From an uncultured Faecalicatena sp. (GTDB lineage Bacteria > Bacillota > Clostridia > Lachnospirales > Lachnospiraceae), in contig CAOKHZ010000032.1 of the NCBI GenBank assembly GCA_948468385.1, positions 1 through 43,447 on the forward strand: 43,447 nt of DNA. Direction: 5' to 3'. Positions within the stretch are counted from its first letter, which is position 1. Every line of letters begins with the position of its first letter. Positions 4,910 through 43,447 of this stretch are shown here, in pieces. Made by a program: the position numbers and the translations under genes. A model generated the notes under the pieces. The model made no database searches and was not told where the DNA came from. It saw only the letters and a list, made by a program, of their open reading frames with translations.

Positions 4910-6301
4910 TTAATCCGTGCCATCTCCCAGCGTGACCTCCACGGTTTCTTTTCCGTACTCCCCGTCACTCTGCGGAATGGCAATCGTCACCTCGACCGTC
5001 TCTCCCTTGGCATAATACTCCAGTTCCTTCTTGAGAGCTGTCATGCTCTCCACCCTGGTTCCGCCAATCGCGGTGATGATGTTTCCCTTTTGAATGCCCG
5101 CTTTTTCCGCACCGCCGCCTTTTATGACCTCTGACACGTAAACTCCCGTGGGCATGTTGTACCTCTGCGAACTCTCGGCAATCACGTCATACCCACGAAT
5201 GCCCAGATACCCTTGCTCACCCTCTTCAACCTTATGCTTGGTCTTCTGGTTCATGAGACTATGAATAATGTCCGACACGTCGCTAATTGGAATCGCGTAT
5301 CCCATTCCCTCGACTTTGCTGCCCGCAATTTTGGAAGAATTGATGCCAATCACTTCCCCGTTGGCATTCACCAACGCGCCACCGCTGTTCCCCGGGTTAA
5401 TCGCCGCATCCGTCTGAATCAATTTGACCGCGTCCTCGTCCACCATGTCCGTCGCCACCATGCTCTGCTCTGAATTCACCGTGCTGCTATTTACGTCCAA
5501 CGCGCTGATGACCCCTGTCGTAACGGACTGCCCATACCCCAGGGCGTTCCCGATGGCAATAGCCGGTTCTCCAACCTTCAACTGGGTCGAATCCCCCAAC
5601 GTCGCGACCGCGATTTTTGACATCGTGTCACCCGAAACAGACTGAAGCGGCACGGCAATCACCGCGATGTCGTGCTCCGAATCGCTCCCCTTCACGTCAG
5701 CCTCGACACTGGTCTTGTCACAAAACGTGACTGTCAACGTCTCACTTCCGGCAATCACGTGATAATTCGTCACAATTAAAAGTTCCTCTTCCGTCTGCGC
5801 GATAATGATGCCGGTTCCGGCACTCGTGCTGTTGTACTGGGAAACTCTTCCAAAAAAGTTCTGGACTTGCTGCACGCTCATGTTCGTGATGGACACGACG
5901 GAGGGCATCACGTCCTCCACAATACCGGACACGTCCGAAGTCACCACGCTGGAAGACCTTGTCAACACCGCGTTGCCGGCAATGTCCCCCGGATTCGTGA
6001 TGCCTGGATTGGTCGAGTCATCATTCCCAAGCAACCTATTGCCAATCATGTTCACCCCGAAAAACACACCTCCGGACACCAAGCCAAACAATACCGCCAT
6101 GCCCACAAACCTTACTAACTTCGGAACATGCCTCTTCTTTTTGACCTCCGCCTGCCTCGGCGGAACATACTGAAAACTTCCATATGTGCCACCGTGATTT
6201 TCATCCCGCGCTGCAGCCTCCTCTACAACCTCGTCCCGAAAACTGTCCTCTCCCCGTTGTATCTCCGGACCATAGTAGTGATATCGTTCATCCATAATCA
6301 T
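4910..6301 (-). CDS. htrA: HtrA/DegP-type membrane serine protease
   Basis: A 463-aa trypsin-like protease of the HtrA family, which degrades misfolded envelope proteins and often responds to envelope stress. Order of parts: a cytoplasmic acidic N-terminus (1-52), a basic patch (KKKRH), one transmembrane helix (about 64-84), a linker, the protease domain (about 125-345) and a C-terminal PDZ domain (about 355-455). The catalytic triad is visible: His181 (TNYHV), Asp211 (SEHDIAV) and Ser306 (PGNSGGAL). AAAGGA lies 4 nt before the ATG at 6301; the ATG at 6295 is an alternative. It is transcribed alone: glmS ends 226 bp upstream with a structured region between, and a strong hairpin follows the gene. 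Its promoter shares a motif with the cohesin gene at 8550. Confidence 0.93.
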   Translation of the reverse strand: MIMDERYHYYGPEIQRGEDSFRDEVVEEAAARDENHGGTYGSFQYVPPRQAEVKKKRHVPKLVRFVGMAVLFGLVSGGVFFGVNMIGNRLLGNDDSTNPGITNPGDIAGNAVLTRSSSVVTSDVSGIVEDVMPSVVSITNMSVQQVQNFFGRVSQYNSTSAGTGIIIAQTEEELLIVTNYHVIAGSETLTVTFCDKTSVEADVKGSDSEHDIAVIAVPLQSVSGDTMSKIAVATLGDSTQLKVGEPAIAIGNALGYGQSVTTGVISALDVNSSTVNSEQSMVATDMVDEDAVKLIQTDAAINPGNSGGALVNANGEVIGINSSKIAGSKVEGMGYAIPISDVSDIIHSLMNQKTKHKVEEGEQGYLGIRGYDVIAESSQRYNMPTGVYVSEVIKGGGAEKAGIQKGNIITAIGGTRVESMTALKKELEYYAKGETVEVTIAIPQSDGEYGKETVEVTLGDGTD

Positions 6302-6318
6302 TTCATCCTTTCCATCTT

Positions 6319-6347
6319 ATTATGATACACGGATTGCTTTATCCCAA
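6319..6347 (-). promoter_or_regulatory. Promoter candidate of htrA
   Basis: TTGGGA (6347-6342) and CATAAT (6324-6319) are separated by 17 bp. The block from 6350 to about 6320 aligns without gaps to 10063-10033 upstream of the cohesin gene; shared parts include GCGTTGG, AATCC and TGTAT. The resulting leader would be only about 10-15 nt, so the true start may lie elsewhere and the motif may instead be an operator. Confidence 0.4.
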
Positions 6348-6424
6348 CGCACTCCCGCAACCCGAAGCATCATGTCTTGATGACATCATAGCCGTTTTTT
6401 GTGATGAAACTGTGTTTATTCCAT

Positions 6425-6501
6425 GAAAAAACGTCGATTCTCGCAAACGCGACATGCACGGCACGTCGCCCCGACCAGTCACGCTCCCGATTGGCCGGGG
6501 C
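6425..6501 (-). terminator. Structured region after glmS, possible terminator
   Basis: After the glmS stop the minus-strand RNA can form a GC-rich 10-bp stem (6501-6492 with 6477-6468), an overlapping 8-bp stem with a 3-nt loop (6468-6461 with 6457-6450), and a weak final stem before six U (6431-6426). No single hairpin sits directly on a U run, so termination is plausible but not clear-cut. Confidence 0.4.
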
Positions 6502-6527
6502 AATTCACATAAAAACCTGCGTTTACC

Positions 6528-8354
6528 TCATTCCACCGTCACCGACTTTGCCAAATTACGCGGCTTATCCACGTCGCACCCTTTCCCGACGGCAATATAG
6601 TATCCAAACAACTGCAAAGGCACGATGGCCAAGGAATTCGCAAAATGCGGATTGGTCCTTGGCACGTAAATCACGTAATCAGCTGCGCGCTCCACCTCGT
6701 CATTTCCCTCGTTCGTCACGGCCAACACGAACGCGCCCCTGGTACGAACCTCCACCATGTTGCTAATCATTTTCTTATACAAGTTCTCCTGCGTGAGCAC
6801 CGCGACCACGAGCGTTCCATCCTCAATCAGGGAGATCGTACCATGTTTCAACTCTCCGGCCGCGTACGCTTCCGAATGAATATAGGAAATCTCCTTCAAT
6901 TTCAGAGAACCTTCCAATGAGATCGCATAATCAATCCCGCGCCCGATGAAAAACACGTCAATTGCCGCCAGATAGCGGTTGGCAAATTTCTGGATACGGT
7001 TCTTGTTGTTCAAAAGCAACTCCACCTGGTCGGGAATCCGCTTCAAGTCATCCATATAGGCATCCAACTCCTGACGAGTCAGCGTCCCCCGCACCGCGCC
7101 AAATTTCATCGCCAACAAGTACAACGCGATCAACTGGCACGAGTACGCCTTCGTCGTGGCCACCGCGATTTCCGGTCCCGCCCAGGTATACATCACGTTG
7201 TCTGCCTCCCGGGCAATGGAACTCCCCACTACGTTGACGATTCCAAGCACTCTCGCGCCGCGCCCCTTCGATTCCCGCAACGCCGCCAATGAATCCGCCG
7301 TCTCGCCGGACTGGCTGATGATGATGACCAACGTATTTTCATCCAACAATGGATCCCGATAACGAAATTCGGAAGCCAAATCCACCTCGACCGGAATCCG
7401 CGCCATCCCTTCCAAGACGTATTTTCCTGTCACTCCCGCATGATATGCCGAACCACAAGCCACGATCATAATCTTTCCGACCTGCCGGATTTCCTCGTCC
7501 GTCATGCCCAACTCCTCGATGACGATGTCATGACCCTTGATTCTCGGGGAAATAGTGTCCGCAATCGCCTTTGGTTGCTCATACATCTCCTTTAGCATGA
7601 AATGCTCGTATCCGCCTTTTTCTGCCGCGTCCACGTCCCAGTCAATGTGAACCGGTTCCTTTTCAATCCGTTCCTCGTCCACGTTATAAAATTCCAACGA
7701 ATCCCGCCGAATGCAGACCACTTCCTCGTTTTCCATAAAGTACACGTCCCTTGTATACTTCAAAACCGCCGGCACGTCGGAGGCAATGATGTTTCCTCCG
7801 TCCGTATGTCCCACGATCAACGGGCTGTCCTTTCGCACCGCGAACAACTGATCTGGATGATCCTTGAACACAATGCCAAGCGCGTAAGACCCCTCCATGC
7901 GGTGCATCACCTTGATGATCGCCGCCAACGGATTGCCATCGTAATAACGATCCAAAAGATGCGCCACAACCTCGGTATCTGTGTCCGACATGAATTCATA
8001 CCCTTTATCCATCAGCCGCTTTTTCAATTTTAAATAATTTTCAATAATCCCATTGTGCACGACCGCGATGCTTCCATCCTTATTCATGTGCGGGTGCGCG
8101 TTGGCATCCGACGGCTCCCCGTGCGTGGCCCACCTGGTATGCCCGATCCCCAACGTCCCCGGCATCTTTTCCCCGTCGTGGGTCAATTCTCCCAACACCT
8201 TGAGACGTCCCTTGGACTTCGTCAAGTGAATCTGCTCCCCATCATATACCGCGATTCCTGCCGAATCATAACCACGATACTCCAATTTTGACAAGCCGTC
8301 CAACAAAATCGGAGCCGCCTGCCGCTCCCCGATATATCCTACAATTCCACACAT
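6528..8354 (-). CDS. glmS: Glutamine-fructose-6-phosphate aminotransferase
   Basis: A 608-aa GlmS, which makes glucosamine-6-phosphate from fructose-6-phosphate and glutamine, the first step to UDP-GlcNAc. The N-terminal glutaminase starts MCGIVGYIG with Cys as the residue after Met, the catalytic nucleophile; YRGYDSAGIA follows. Two SIS domains come next (SGETADS; the second in the SLKLKEISYIHSEAY region). The C-terminus DKPRNLAKSVTVE is exactly family-typical. I chose the ATG at 8354 because the nucleophile must follow Met and AAAGGAG precedes it; a longer reading to 8468 is not supported. No glmS ribozyme was recognised upstream; a terminator-like hairpin lies at 8447-8491. glmM lies about 35 kb upstream in the same window. 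Confidence 0.97.
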   Translation of the reverse strand: MCGIVGYIGERQAAPILLDGLSKLEYRGYDSAGIAVYDGEQIHLTKSKGRLKVLGELTHDGEKMPGTLGIGHTRWATHGEPSDANAHPHMNKDGSIAVVHNGIIENYLKLKKRLMDKGYEFMSDTDTEVVAHLLDRYYDGNPLAAIIKVMHRMEGSYALGIVFKDHPDQLFAVRKDSPLIVGHTDGGNIIASDVPAVLKYTRDVYFMENEEVVCIRRDSLEFYNVDEERIEKEPVHIDWDVDAAEKGGYEHFMLKEMYEQPKAIADTISPRIKGHDIVIEELGMTDEEIRQVGKIMIVACGSAYHAGVTGKYVLEGMARIPVEVDLASEFRYRDPLLDENTLVIIISQSGETADSLAALRESKGRGARVLGIVNVVGSSIAREADNVMYTWAGPEIAVATTKAYSCQLIALYLLAMKFGAVRGTLTRQELDAYMDDLKRIPDQVELLLNNKNRIQKFANRYLAAIDVFFIGRGIDYAISLEGSLKLKEISYIHSEAYAAGELKHGTISLIEDGTLVVAVLTQENLYKKMISNMVEVRTRGAFVLAVTNEGNDEVERAADYVIYVPRTNPHFANSLAIVPLQLFGYYIAVGKGCDVDKPRNLAKSVTVE

Positions 8355-38984: not shown

Positions 38985-40706
38985 TTATCGTTTTTTCTTA
39001 TTCAATTTCCCTGCTTCCTCTAATTTTATCATGCAATACTTATCACAAAAACACATTCCATAACACGTAACCTTTTCGTACCCTTCATGAATGAATTCCG
39101 TAGCATACCCTTTCTCCTCTATCTGCTTTAATGCCTTATCACACCCTTCACTCTGCTTTGCAAAGTGCTTGACTCTTTTAAGCTCTATCACAAACGCCTG
39201 GTGATGCGGATTGTGCGGCCGTAAAAGAATATCCGGCCGCCCTTCCCCTTGCTCTCTATTGGACAAAATCCGATATCCGCCGAAGCCGCTCAAAATTCCT
39301 AACAAATAGCCATGGTAAAACTTCTCGCCCTCGTCATAATAACTAATACTAAAGCTTAACTGCCCATTAATAGATTCCTCCATCTTTCTCGCGTCTTGTT
39401 CTCGCATTGCCTGATAAAACGGCTGAAAGTCCACCTTGCGAACACTTTCATCAAACCAAGTTCGAATTGTATTTTTATAAATATAATTTACTTCCTTGTT
39501 CGGAACCGTCATGGTCAGATAAATCGTTTCCTCCTCAAGCCTCTGCGATACCGCTTTCAGATATCCAGTAAAAAATAGGAAATTCCATAAATTGTCCTGA
39601 TTCTCATAAATTTCTCCATACGTAACATCTTCATGAATCGGCTTTTCCACCGCTCCCCCGGAAATCAACTCTTCAATCTCTCCCTTTGCAGCCTCGTCTG
39701 CCTTTTCTATCAGTTCACGGACAGCAGTATTGGAAGAAGTGTTCGACCAATATGGACAAGGCAACGCCACAGTATTCGTAATAGCCATGCTTACATAATT
39801 AATAATACTCCAGGGATTGTATACCTGCGTTTCTCCAAACAAATATCCATTATACCATTCCTTCGCCTCATCAATCTTATCGCACAAATCATAGAATGCT
39901 AACATTTCTTCGACTTCTATCTGTGTGAATCCAAAATACTCCGCATACCCATTATCTAAAATAAAATTCATTTTTAAATTGTTCAAACCCGCAAAAATGC
40001 TTTCCCTACTGATACGCAAGCACCCCGTAACAACTGCAAACTTCAAACAATTGTTGGTTTTTAATGCCGACTCAAACAAAGAACGGATAAAGTCAACCAT
40101 CTGCTCGTAAAATCCCTTGAAAAAGGCATTCTCCAATGGCACATCATATTCATCAAGCAAAATGATCACATTGGTTCCATGGTACTTTTTCAGGCACTCC
40201 GATAAAAAGGCCAATGCCTTCGCATAAGCAATTGGCTCTGCCCGCCGATTCATAATGGCATCATACTTCTCGCGATACGCTTCCGTAAGGCAGTTTGCAT
40301 CCAAAATATAATTATGCCGAACATATTCCTTGATAATCTCATCTATCAAGCTTTCATGAGCCATATAAAAATCCGGCTGCTTGGCAGATTTTAACGACAT
40401 AGAAATAACCGGATACTTTCCCATATGTTCCAGATACCTATCCCCTTCGTCCATAATCTTCCTGCTGTCAAAATAATGACGGTTGTCCACAACACTACCG
40501 TCTGATGCAAGCTCCCTTTCAAAAAACGTCCTTATCATACTAAGTGTAAGCGTCTTGCCGAAACGGCACGGACGGATGAAAAGCTCCACCTTCGAACCAT
40601 AATCCAACAAGTCCTTTATCATCAAGGTCTTATCCACATAGTAGTAAGCCCCATCTATCATGTCCTTATAGCTCTCGATACCAATCCCGATTGGTTTCTT
40701 CAACAT
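38985..40706 (-). CDS. AAA-ATPase-like / PD-(D/E)XK nuclease-family protein
   Basis: A 573-aa member of a large clostridial and Bacteroidetes family that pairs an N-terminal AAA-ATPase-like domain with a C-terminal PD-(D/E)XK nuclease-like domain. Visible: YYVDKTLMIKDLL and RPCRFGKTLTLSMI (P-loop variant), VIILLDEYDVPLENA (Walker B and beyond), and near the end GRPDILLRPHNPHHQAFVIELKRVK, the nuclease core with Asp and ExK. Biological function is unknown; many copies sit in variable genome regions. GAGGTG lies 6 nt before the ATG at 40706; a GTG nine bases earlier is possible. It lies directly before rfbA, an odd place, and its base composition is AT-richer than the rfb genes, suggesting insertion. 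Confidence 0.85.
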   Translation of the reverse strand: MLKKPIGIGIESYKDMIDGAYYYVDKTLMIKDLLDYGSKVELFIRPCRFGKTLTLSMIRTFFERELASDGSVVDNRHYFDSRKIMDEGDRYLEHMGKYPVISMSLKSAKQPDFYMAHESLIDEIIKEYVRHNYILDANCLTEAYREKYDAIMNRRAEPIAYAKALAFLSECLKKYHGTNVIILLDEYDVPLENAFFKGFYEQMVDFIRSLFESALKTNNCLKFAVVTGCLRISRESIFAGLNNLKMNFILDNGYAEYFGFTQIEVEEMLAFYDLCDKIDEAKEWYNGYLFGETQVYNPWSIINYVSMAITNTVALPCPYWSNTSSNTAVRELIEKADEAAKGEIEELISGGAVEKPIHEDVTYGEIYENQDNLWNFLFFTGYLKAVSQRLEEETIYLTMTVPNKEVNYIYKNTIRTWFDESVRKVDFQPFYQAMREQDARKMEESINGQLSFSISYYDEGEKFYHGYLLGILSGFGGYRILSNREQGEGRPDILLRPHNPHHQAFVIELKRVKHFAKQSEGCDKALKQIEEKGYATEFIHEGYEKVTCYGMCFCDKYCMIKLEEAGKLNKKKR

Positions 40707-40808
40707 GTACAGCACCTCGCTTCCTATTTTTCATTTTAGCATAGGAAACACGGTTTAGAAACAAGAAAATCATCGATGAACAAATACAAAACAAATCCAT
40801 CAAGTGTG

Positions 40809-40843
40809 TTCAAAGAAAATGGAGTTCTCCAGAACCCCATTTT
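40809..40843 (-). terminator. Terminator of the alarmone-synthetase operon
   Basis: A 12-bp stem (40843-40832 with 40827-40816; one G-U pair) with a 4-nt loop is followed on the minus strand by CUUUG; a U-rich arm makes it terminator-like. It lies about 120 bp after the stop at 40963. The rest of the 40707-40962 spacer holds only a weak extended -10 for the downstream gene. Confidence 0.55.
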
Positions 40844-40962: not shown

Positions 40963-41505
40963 TTACTTTAGTACCAGCATTCCCATTTTAAAAGACTCCA
41001 TTGCCAACTCAATAACCTGGGGATTGCATTCTCGGTATTTGAAATAGTAAAGCAACATCTTTATGTATTCCTCTAGTTTAAGTTTACTCTCTCTAGATAC
41101 AAACTTCTTTTCTCCACACAACAAGCACTCATTCAACATCAAATACGTTGCAAAACGTTCATTCACATAAATATCTTTTTCCTCATCCGTATAGCCTTTA
41201 AACTGCAATGGCTTACGCCTAATAATCCAAGCAATCGTGTACGCAAATATCTTTTCCGTACGGACTTTTTCAATAGAATGAAACTCTTTTAATCTGAAAA
41301 TATCTGCATAATAATCTAACAGCACCGCCAACATGATACGCTCATTACAATATACATAAGATTCATACCCCGCTTCACGTATAAAATCATCTGCCGTATC
41401 ACGCAATTCTTCCAAACGCTGCCGAAACTTTTCTGGTGTAACTTTTTGTATAATGTCGTCATAACTCCCAATTTGGGGGTTTTGATTTATTTCACTCATT
41501 TCCAT
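40963..41505 (-). CDS. Unknown all-helical protein of the synthetase operon
   Basis: A 180-aa protein I do not recognise. It looks mostly alpha-helical and soluble, with aromatic-rich helices (LLDYYADIFRLKEF, ATYLMLNECLLCGEKKF, YIKMLLYYFKYRECNP). There is no signal peptide or membrane helix. It overlaps the end of the upstream 86-aa gene by 14 bp and is the last gene of the operon. AAGGA lies 4 nt before the ATG at 41505; the ATG at 41499 is also possible. By position it is a candidate antitoxin, cofactor or effector for the alarmone synthetase, but nothing in the sequence proves this. It does not show the Panacea antitoxin pattern found with other toxic synthetases. Confidence 0.7.
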   Translation of the reverse strand: MEMSEINQNPQIGSYDDIIQKVTPEKFRQRLEELRDTADDFIREAGYESYVYCNERIMLAVLLDYYADIFRLKEFHSIEKVRTEKIFAYTIAWIIRRKPLQFKGYTDEEKDIYVNERFATYLMLNECLLCGEKKFVSRESKLKLEEYIKMLLYYFKYRECNPQVIELAMESFKMGMLVLK

Positions 41506-41752
41506 CAATTCCTTTTATCGCTCTTAATAACCTCAATTCCTTTAAGTCTAAATTCTCACTAAAAACACTGTATGCCATATCCGAATGCAGATTGCTCCTG
41601 GTATTTGAAAAATAACTTGCCACCATTTCACCAGAAAACTCATAAGACGAGTTTACCAATGTATCTTTTTTGTGCTCCCCTCTGAGTAATTCCTTCATCA
41701 ATGTGCCAATCCGCCTTGATTTCTCAACTAACATCCTCTGATTCTTCATCAT
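41492..41752 (-). CDS. Small unknown protein of the synthetase operon
   Basis: An 86-aa protein of unknown function with a basic N-terminal half (MLVEKSRRIGTLMKELLRGEHKKD) and a polar C-terminal half (SYEFSGEMVASYFSNTRSNLH). Its ATG directly follows the TGA of the alarmone-synthetase gene (a second ATG at 41749 is also possible), with GGAAGGG 4 to 7 nt upstream. Its end overlaps the next gene, so all three genes are translationally coupled. The small size and position fit an antitoxin, which is inference only. Confidence 0.7.
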   Translation of the reverse strand: MMKNQRMLVEKSRRIGTLMKELLRGEHKKDTLVNSSYEFSGEMVASYFSNTRSNLHSDMAYSVFSENLDLKELRLLRAIKGIDGNE

Positions 41753-42652
41753 TCATCCCTTCCTTAATATAGTATTATTACCATATTCCGCAACATCGAT
41801 TCTTTTACTCAACTCTGTCTTCTCTGGAACTTCATCAGTTAATTGAGCAGAAACTACCCATTGTGAAATGTTCTTCCAATCTATGTACGTATCTTCTTTA
41901 CAAAAAGATTCACAATCTTTCCAGCCTTCCTCGCCAAGTTGAAAACATGTTGAAATGATTTCATCCACAGAATTAAGCAGTTGCGAAACAATACTCGTGT
42001 AACGCTTCAAAAATCGATTGTTCTCACGATAAGGATATTTTACTTTATGATCAAATTCCCCATATACTTCTTCTGCCAGAGTTCGGACTTGTATTTCGCA
42101 ATAAAGCCTCTTAAACTCAACAACATAATGTTGAGAACGGTATCCCTTATTCGTATGTTCTCTATGAATCTTATTATGGAAAATATCACGGTCACCATAT
42201 CGCGTGTAAGCTTTGGGTTGCTCAACTATTCTACATTCTTCTTTTGAACTCTCTGGAAACTTCATCATCAACCAATCAAATACTTCTTCCCATTGTTCTT
42301 TCGCTAAAATCAAGATACGAACCCCTACCAAATCACGGACAATCTCATGATAATTCATAACATTTATCCCCTCATATTTCTGGCTTTGCTCATTTCCTCT
42401 CTTACGAATAATTTTCTCAATCAAATGTTCAGGATTTTTAACTCGAGAACAAATAGAATGAATGACAATATTTCCTCCATCCGATATATCCTTTAAAATA
42501 TACTCCTTAATATCTTGAGCGCAACTTTTAAAATCTTTGTCACGTTTCTGATAATCCTCGTGTATCTCCTGAAGAACTTCCCATTTCAAATCAGATTTCA
42601 CAAAATCATCCCATACCGGATAATCCTTAAAGAATTGCTCCTTATCCAACAT
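41753..42652 (-). CDS. RelA/SpoT-type small alarmone synthetase
   Basis: A 299-aa protein with a RelA/SpoT synthetase domain and no hydrolase (HD) domain. These enzymes move pyrophosphate from ATP to GTP/GDP or, in toxic members, to other nucleotides or the tRNA CCA end. Domain signatures in order: HSICSRVKNPEHLIEKIIRK (about 65-84), RDLVGVRIL (about 106-114), KGYRSQHYVVEF (about 168-179), and EIQVRTLAEEVYGEFDHKVKY (about 185-205) including the catalytic Glu. All key residues appear intact. Flanking helical extensions (1-60, 215-299) lack TGS/ACT domains, so it is not the housekeeping Rel. AAAGGTG lies 7 nt before the ATG. First gene of a tightly coupled AT-rich operon between glmM and the rhamnose genes, arranged like a toxSAS toxin-antitoxin locus. 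Confidence 0.85.
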   Translation of the reverse strand: MLDKEQFFKDYPVWDDFVKSDLKWEVLQEIHEDYQKRDKDFKSCAQDIKEYILKDISDGGNIVIHSICSRVKNPEHLIEKIIRKRGNEQSQKYEGINVMNYHEIVRDLVGVRILILAKEQWEEVFDWLMMKFPESSKEECRIVEQPKAYTRYGDRDIFHNKIHREHTNKGYRSQHYVVEFKRLYCEIQVRTLAEEVYGEFDHKVKYPYRENNRFLKRYTSIVSQLLNSVDEIISTCFQLGEEGWKDCESFCKEDTYIDWKNISQWVVSAQLTDEVPEKTELSKRIDVAEYGNNTILRKG

Positions 42653-42866
42653 ATAAACACCTTTAAAAATTCCTTTTTACAAATCCTTTTATCCCCATTG
42701 TTCAAAGCAACAATATAAACGTATAGAATATGTAAAGTATACTATTTAAGTTAAGAAATTACAAGTAGCAAATAAAAATTTCCCACACCTCTTCGACTTA
42801 TTTTAACCCTTTTTCAACATATCTCACGCCATATCACTTTCCATAACATCTTCCTCATCTTCTTTA
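42653..42866. other. Spacer between glmM and the accessory operon
   Basis: A 214-bp spacer where composition shifts from moderate GC at glmM to AT-rich. No gene or clear terminator of glmM is visible. Weak promoter-like hexamers occur upstream of 42652 but none is convincing; the junction may be an insertion boundary. Confidence 0.45.
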
Positions 42867-43447
42867 TCATGCCACGACCAACCCTTCCGCCTTGATTACG
42901 TCCACGACCTGCTGCACGTATTTCGCGCACAACTCATCGGTGGTCGCCTCCACCATCACACGAATGACCGGCTCCGTACCGCTTTCGCGCACGAGAATCC
43001 TGCCGTCACTGCCAAGCGCCTCCTTGACATCCGCCACGGCGCGCTGCACGGCCGCGTTTTCCTGCGCCTCTTTCTTATCCTTCACCCGCACGTTTTTCAA
43101 AAGTTGCGGATAAATCTTCACTTCCTCACAAAGCTTAGAAAGGGACTGCTTCTTTTCCAGCATTACCTCCATCACCATCAGGGAGGTCACTATGCCGTCG
43201 CCGGTTCTCGCGTGCTTGCTGAAAATAATGTGGCCGGACTGTTCGCCGCCGAGCAGGAAACCGTTCTGCTGCATATTTTCATATACATACTTATCTCCCA
43301 CGGCCGTCTGCTCGTACTTCATGCCAATCTTGTCACACGCCTTATACAGTCCCAGATTGGACATGACCGTGGTGACGATGGTATTCCCATATAGCCTTCC
43401 TTGCTCCATCAAATATTTTCCGCAAACGTAAAGAATGAAGTCACCGT
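42867..43447 (-). CDS. glmM: Phosphoglucosamine mutase, 3' part (cut by window)
   Basis: The C-terminal about 193 residues of GlmM, which converts glucosamine-6-phosphate to glucosamine-1-phosphate for UDP-GlcNAc. The reading frame stays open to the window edge with GDFILYVCGKYL, so the ATG at 43412 is internal. Family signatures: TVMSNLGLYKA, NGFLLGGEQSGHIIFSKHARTGDG (substrate-binding GGEQSGH), and RESGTEPVIRVMVEA, the phosphate-binding loop. The gene start, active-site serine and metal loop lie outside the window. Confidence 0.96.
   Translation of the reverse strand, partial: GDFILYVCGKYLMEQGRLYGNTIVTTVMSNLGLYKACDKIGMKYEQTAVGDKYVYENMQQNGFLLGGEQSGHIIFSKHARTGDGIVTSLMVMEVMLEKKQSLSKLCEEVKIYPQLLKNVRVKDKKEAQENAAVQRAVADVKEALGSDGRILVRESGTEPVIRVMVEATTDELCAKYVQQVVDVIKAEGLVVA

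Follow-up and report, generated by a model that had tools for sequence, protein, structure and literature searches.

A RelA/SpoT synthetase locus of Lachnospiraceae with two partner proteins outside named families: a candidate toxin-antitoxin or defence module

Synthetases of the RelA/SpoT type kill in other systems. The toxic alarmone synthetase (toxSAS) FaRel of Cellulomonas marina is encoded by a three-gene locus with the order aTfaRel - faRel - aT2faRel; one of its partners is an alarmone hydrolase and the other a Tis1-like/pseudo-zinc-finger antitoxin, and a toxSAS partner blocks its enzyme at the donor or the acceptor site (PMC11782079). Panacea antitoxins pair both with toxSAS enzymes and with membrane-disrupting toxins (PMC8832971, PMC10440598). 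In this study, we analyzed a three-gene locus, A3-A2-A1, in a stretch of 43,447 nucleotides, the whole of which is referred to below as the window. The present module resembles the FaRel locus in joining a single-domain synthetase to two partners in a tight operon, and it has an accessory distribution, whereas it differs in that neither A1 nor A2 reaches a Pfam cut-off and that the effector role of A3 is presumed. No description of the A3-A2-A1 trio was found in the literature, as covered by titles and the openings of abstracts, with most subscription papers and all preprints outside this coverage.

The three genes and their setting

All three genes are located on the minus strand. A3 (41753..42652) starts with ATG and encodes a 299-aa protein with a RelA/SpoT (SYNTH) domain, the presumed effector (a pyrophosphokinase). 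The ATG of A2 (41492..41752), an 86-aa small protein presumed to be the partner of A1, directly follows the stop codon of A3, and A1 (40963..41508) overlaps A2. The product of A1 has about 178-181 aa depending on the start, since the mechanically assigned TTG at 41508 gives 181 aa and ATGs at 41505 and 41499 also overlap the end of A2. These open reading frames confirmed the tight block, with A2 abutting A3 and A1 overlapping A2, that a preliminary description of the locus had reported. The same description placed a hairpin at the end of the block, and a possible terminator is indeed present about 120 nt beyond A1 (40816..40843; arms 40816-40828 and 40831-40843), with 13-nt arms that are 92% complementary around a 2-nt loop; however, this hairpin was absent from the output of a terminator scan, which gave no more than shuffled sequence did (a total of 1 vs. 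a shuffle mean of 1.0). The AT-richness ascribed to the block was likewise found, with a G+C content of 0.36-0.37 at 41001-43000 and of 0.48-0.55 in 29 of the 35 kilobases between 4 and 39 kb, yet the first 3 kb of the window is equally AT-rich. No RNA element was detected with Rfam at gathering scores.

Named by eye, the surroundings are biosynthetic in appearance, including rhamnose-type genes and glmM, which agrees with the idea that the module interrupts a biosynthetic locus; but sister modules adjoin genes of other kinds (also judged by eye), and the biosynthetic setting is therefore probably incidental. The window ends within a glmM-like gene (42867-43445). Another contig of the same genome starts within a second glmM-like 3′ end (G000:C33:3-578), whose DNA is 94.7% identical to that of the window and downstream of which the gene order resembles that of the siblings G001 and G008; this could mean that a gene end next to the island was duplicated or acquired, or that the assembly contains two strains. 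A gene of the AAA-ATPase_like/PDDEXK_9 type (38985-40715) adjoins the module as well. It was rejected as a fourth component, a relative being present in only 3 of the 20 other loci (L036, L147 and, weakly, L140).

A3 matched the Pfam family RelA_SpoT (PF04607) with 53.9 bits (cut-off 27, E = 2.7e-14), and its translation contains the motifs SRVK, DLVGVR, KGYRSQH and EIQVRT, which bears out the earlier identification of a RelA/SpoT synthetase with intact motifs. Residues D107, Y171 and E186, which we take to be catalytic, are invariant across 15 aligned module synthetases, and 11 of 13 inspected positions in the active-site region do not vary among 19 rows, 15 of them from modules and 4 solo. 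The module synthetases have 91-126 residues after the EIQVRT motif vs. 63-82 in six solo relatives. As a mark of the module this tail is weakened by the ranges in 59 viral relatives (56-316, median 186) and five housekeeping rows (66-131), and its sequence is unlike between subgroups of the module synthetases. Because the viral and housekeeping lengths overlap, a docking function of the C-terminal extension of A3 is put forward as an idea only. The A3 profile matched RelP and RelQ chains in the PDB, and PHROG 2211 matched A3 at 7.9e-25. Three more genes in the genome of the window, a long one and two short ones, pass the RelA_SpoT cut-off.

The search for named families of A1 and A2 yielded none over the cut-off in Pfam and none at E up to 1 in NCBIfam or PADLOC, and for A3 of the window PADLOC likewise gave no family at E up to 1. 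The Pfam matches of A1 and A2 were scattered and weak, the best being 0.0043 in one of six A1 rows, and the Panacea (DUF4065) domain gave no Pfam match in six aligned A1 rows including that of the window. A1 is marked by a pattern of K / W / P / N-E / Y that is kept in 25 aligned family members, and the core of A2 is loosely conserved around G-x-x-K-K-D-x-L-x-N. The 86-aa protein had been described as basic, which is true of A2 in the window (pI 9.0) but not of the family, where the pI ranges from 4.4 to 10.0 over 20 sequences.

Conservation of the trio and position of the synthetase

A profile of six A1 rows was searched against 397 genomes of the family, including that of the window, with at most eight candidates scored in each, so that the counts are lower bounds. 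It matched in at least 20 of the 397 genomes, at no fewer than 21 loci, and a RelA/SpoT gene or remnant was adjacent in 18 of the 21 A1 loci found. Of the three loci lacking an adjacent synthetase, that of G406 has a truncated A1 and that of G125 consists of a fragment at the end of a contig; in G289, a small ORF occupies the position of A2 beside A1. Fourteen of the 18 adjacent synthetases are uninterrupted, and the fifteenth module synthetase comes from an Oscillospiraceae MAG (L037). The order A3-A2-A1 is the usual one, A2-A1-A3 occurs in L149 and L143 and A2-A3-A1 in L144 and L145, and in L148, by eye, a single reading frame comprises an A2-like first half followed by A1. A profile detected A2 in some of the loci; in L133, L135, L136, L137, L139, L140, L145, and L146, the gene was assigned by position and alignment. 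Its recurrence at 18 of the 21 loci collected through A1 in the family shows that the arrangement of the module is not due to chance. Moreover, the distances among A1 proteins and among A3 proteins are correlated across 15 loci (r = 0.885, with 0 of 5000 permutations as high), a value that ignores host kinship; this co-divergence does not show binding of A1 to A3. Broken copies of the module occur in L149, L138, L141, and L143, and because the loci were collected through A1, they give a biased view of broken synthetases beside intact A1. L149 is a second, diverged module in the genome of the window itself (G000:C31, oriented 5619-7085), with the order A2-A1-A3, its synthetase in pieces of 142 aa and 68 aa, and its A2 and A1 open.

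In a tree of 104 RelA/SpoT proteins, from which long Rel-type rows were left out, 18 rows taken as housekeeping RelQ/RelP-like split from the 86 others at 100/100. The preliminary description had named a grouping of A3 with RelP/RelQ as an outcome that would speak against its reading; this branch separates A3 from the rows taken as such, and a housekeeping RelP/RelQ identity is rejected on the basis of this tree. Three solo rows (L009-L011) cluster with the 15 module synthetases (88/76, not starred), and a starred branch (96/88) unites 16 of these 18 rows. The three solo proteins sit within the module clade with their catalytic residues kept, and an enzyme of this type is therefore not necessarily lethal on its own.

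The search from the synthetase side covered 97 relatives, 11 of them of the same genus, with E below 1e-18 defining a strong homologue. The synthetase was found in none of the 11 same-genus genomes. Seven strong homologues were found in the 97 relatives, with the partners present in three (G039, G043, and G053), while A1 and A2 were not found within the examined stretches of up to 1.5 kb on each side of the other four (G014, G048, G044, and G084). Three of these four are the solo rows L009-L011, and the enzyme thus also exists by itself. Conservation of the small genes beside the synthetase, on which the earlier reading depended, therefore holds in the module clade but extends to just three of the seven strong homologues. 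Neither A1 nor A2 was found in the stretches examined around 63 viral RelA/SpoT loci. With a SYNTH domain bearing the catalytic residues and with conserved small neighbours in a tight operon (18 of 21 A1 loci; three of seven from the synthetase side), the module shares two traits of toxSAS systems and, judged from sequence, may be called toxSAS-like. We assign it to no named toxSAS family, the sequence comparison covering CapRel SJ46.

Exchange of the partners of A1 and occurrence on viral contigs

Wider searches with A1 alignments enlarged step by step revealed A1 in 12 genomes outside the family in total. These are G649 (2 of 398 genomes in one search, including that of the window, and 1 of 46 in a later one), G1109, G1166, and G075 (5 of 391, including G000 and G033), G1271, G1261, and G1255 (4 of 95, including G1109), and G1432, G1419, G1337, G1507, and G1637 (6 of 394, including G1166). 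No RelA/SpoT gene was found beside these A1 genes at 1e-3 in the scanned stretches (for L188, beyond 1.5 kb by eye). Small membrane proteins, with segments assigned by hydropathy only, accompany A1 in 9 of the 12 genomes. In G649, G1255, G1432, G1507, and G1637, two proteins are encoded upstream of A1, of which one has 3-4 hydrophobic segments and the other a segment close to the N-terminus, the multi-segment gene being the second neighbour of A1; in G1109, G1166, G1271, and G1261, a protein with two hydrophobic segments is encoded directly after A1. G1419 has A1 and a small ORF taken as A2 by position and alignment, seemingly an A2-A1 pair alone; in G075 and G1337, the locus is broken. At a distance of up to 60 nt, a small neighbour with two segments was recorded for 14 of 96 genes in the nine loci vs. 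16 of 928 in background loci.

The kinship of the membrane-linked A1s to the synthetase-linked A1s is solid: a profile of 16 synthetase-linked rows recovered all nine membrane-linked A1s at 7e-52 to 7.3e-7, and the best of 2304 shuffled ORFs reached 0.11. In an A1 tree of 32 rows, both membrane classes need at least two changes each on starred branches; when all four classes are taken together, six changes are required, the least possible being three, and long branches (L204, L218) blur the details. BLASTP among the membrane partners related L188 to L214, L196 clearly to L197, and L204 weakly (0.024), and because the remaining partners show no mutual likeness, the membrane partners represent several families. 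Those of L196, L197, L204, and L205 each consist of two hydrophobic segments and a polar tail. In a SLATT scan of 4 of 14 partners, those of L196 and L197 reached 16.1 and 14.1 bits vs. a cut-off of 29.5 (Pfam E 0.007 and 0.03), and two L188 proteins gave no match; the L196 and L197 partners also scored 0.001-0.016 in PADLOC, below cut-offs, and unrelated membrane families score as high for them as SLATT does. Across the loci, A1 is the constant component and the presumed effector varies, much as it does in the case of Panacea antitoxins. The earlier proposal, in which the locus is toxSAS-like and its pair of partners undescribed, is thereby just partly supported: it is still the best reading of a trio that is conserved and stands apart from RelQ/RelP, but its larger partner is not synthetase-specific, having membrane partners elsewhere.

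In IMG/VR, A1 was found on four viral contigs, three with a complete A2-A1 pair and one with a fragment. The viral A2s were detected by profile (2e-7 to 2e-3), and that of contig L060 corresponds to PHROG 38756. No RelA/SpoT gene was found on the four viral A1 records, which may be fragments and were searched without a positive control. The A1s of L060 and L061 had no match among phages, the A1 of the window had none among plasmids, and a viral scan with the membrane-class A1 gave no match. The contig L155 (4776-5591) and the related viral contig L158 differ at the A2-A1 site, one carrying the complete pair and the other an intact membrane gene together with a short A1 remnant joined to the neighbouring gene, as if the site had been exchanged.

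Several viral and plasmid synthetases showed arrangements of their own. In 8 of the 63 viral RelA/SpoT loci (L115-L120, L124, and L125), a short form of the synthetase is closely preceded by a related gene, which encodes 366-369 aa in seven of the eight; the L117 member codes for a ParA-like ATPase (AAA_31) and overlaps the gene of a 229-aa synthetase. This pair is possibly a separate two-gene module. A 12.1 kb Vibrio phage (Tectiliviricetes; L127, 10570-12106) has RelA/SpoT matches in two overlapping frames, the larger of which lacks an annotation on its strand. The longer, solitary form of the synthetase occurs on a Geobacillus plasmid (48.7 kb) and a Paracoccus plasmid (5.1 kb) (L128/L129), where the Paracoccus gene adjoins a BrnT/BrnA pair.

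Proposed role and comparison with known systems

Based on what was observed, namely the conservation of the trio, the co-divergence of A1 and A3, the kept catalytic residues, the exchange of partners, and the viral A2-A1 pairs, we lean towards the trio being a module of the toxin-antitoxin or abortive-infection/defence type with an undescribed control protein. An accessory distribution, tight operons of variable order, a constant A1, exchanged effectors, an enzyme of a type that kills, and lone viral pairs all fit a module in which A1 and A2 restrain A3. A3 would then be the effector, a pyrophosphokinase which, when free, would modify nucleotides or tRNA ends and stop growth. A1 together with A2 would form a control complex that keeps A3 inactive, perhaps through the C-terminal extension of the enzyme, and a disturbance by a phage or mobile element would release A3. 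Elsewhere, A1 would serve as a general control protein paired with small membrane proteins as pore-type effectors. For this module, we infer the toxicity, the direct binding, the neutralisation, the docking site, the trigger, and the chemistry. The main fact contrary to this explanation is the existence of solo synthetases with kept residues, in view of which the enzyme need not be lethal.

On a wider reading, which we regard as evenly balanced, A1 would be an undescribed, widely exchanged, Panacea-like control domain of conflict modules with A2 as its co-factor, holding in check a RelA/SpoT pyrophosphokinase and at least two small membrane architectures, and phages would carry the effector-less pair as a counter-measure. 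If this is right, a new control-protein family joins those that pair in turn with toxic alarmone synthetases or with membrane effectors, and Lachnospiraceae and other Clostridia offer concrete test objects. It also becomes testable whether one family can neutralise (or activate) chemically unrelated effectors, and whether phages carry the same pair to escape.

An opposite sign of control is conceivable at a clearly lower probability: A1, with A2, might be a sensor or adaptor that switches a quiet effector on at a phage product or signal, like effector-swapping CBASS. The exchange between enzyme and membrane-protein partners is equally expected under such an arrangement, the weak resemblance, below threshold, of two membrane partners to SLATT and to CBASS 2TM/4TM effector models is in line with it, and the intact solo synthetases point to an enzyme that does not kill by default. 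However, the effector-less viral A2-A1 pairs are easier to understand as neutralisers than as sensors lacking an output, and no signal-making enzyme was conspicuous by eye near the loci with membrane partners. It is unlikely that A3 is a regulated alarmone synthetase of ordinary physiology whose (p)ppGpp output A1 and A2 tune, e.g., for the synthesis of cell-envelope polysaccharide. Its intact motifs, its solo relatives, and the polysaccharide-looking genes near the copies of the window and of Blautia L036 (by eye) would suit such a role, but other copies lie beside different genes (by eye), the synthetase is missing from all 11 same-genus genomes searched, several copies (L149, L138, L141, and L143) are broken, and A1 recurs with membrane proteins and no synthetase. 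That the genes of A1 and A2 are chance neighbours of a stand-alone synthetase can practically be dismissed, for although they were not found in the examined stretches of the 63 viral loci or at four of the seven strong homologues, a synthetase gene or its remnant accompanies 18 of 21 A1 loci in three gene orders and with a co-divergence of r = 0.885.

The preferred explanation, an effector restrained by A1 and A2, can be set against further described systems. CapRel SJ46 is reportedly a toxSAS fused to its antitoxin and carried on a Salmonella phage. It shares the RelA/SpoT core, and phages likewise carry members of the wider enzyme family to which A3 belongs, whereas the genes of the present module are separate. 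The A3 profile missed CapRel SJ46 at E 1e-3, but since it missed the long Rel of the genome itself (L003) too, this comparison is weak. RelP and RelQ are by sequence the nearest solved structures to A3, from which the 100/100 branch sets it apart (rows taken as housekeeping), and we know of no description of housekeeping RelP/RelQ with partners such as A1 and A2. The solitary prophage RelA/SpoT proteins (PHROG 2211/9640) belong to the enzyme branch of A3; unlike A3, they are mostly 330-500 aa with long tails and have no A1 or A2 in the stretches examined. The SLATT and CBASS 2TM effectors resemble the partners of L196, L197, L204, and L205 in their two hydrophobic segments and polar tail, while the L196 and L197 partners score below the cut-offs. 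Panacea (PanA, DUF4065) offers a parallel in one control family that serves toxSAS enzymes as well as membrane-type effectors in variable gene orders; A1 differs from it in having no Panacea match in Pfam and a K-W-P-NE-Y pattern of its own. By analogy with these systems, the A3-A2-A1 module likely works like the toxSAS or Panacea-type modules.
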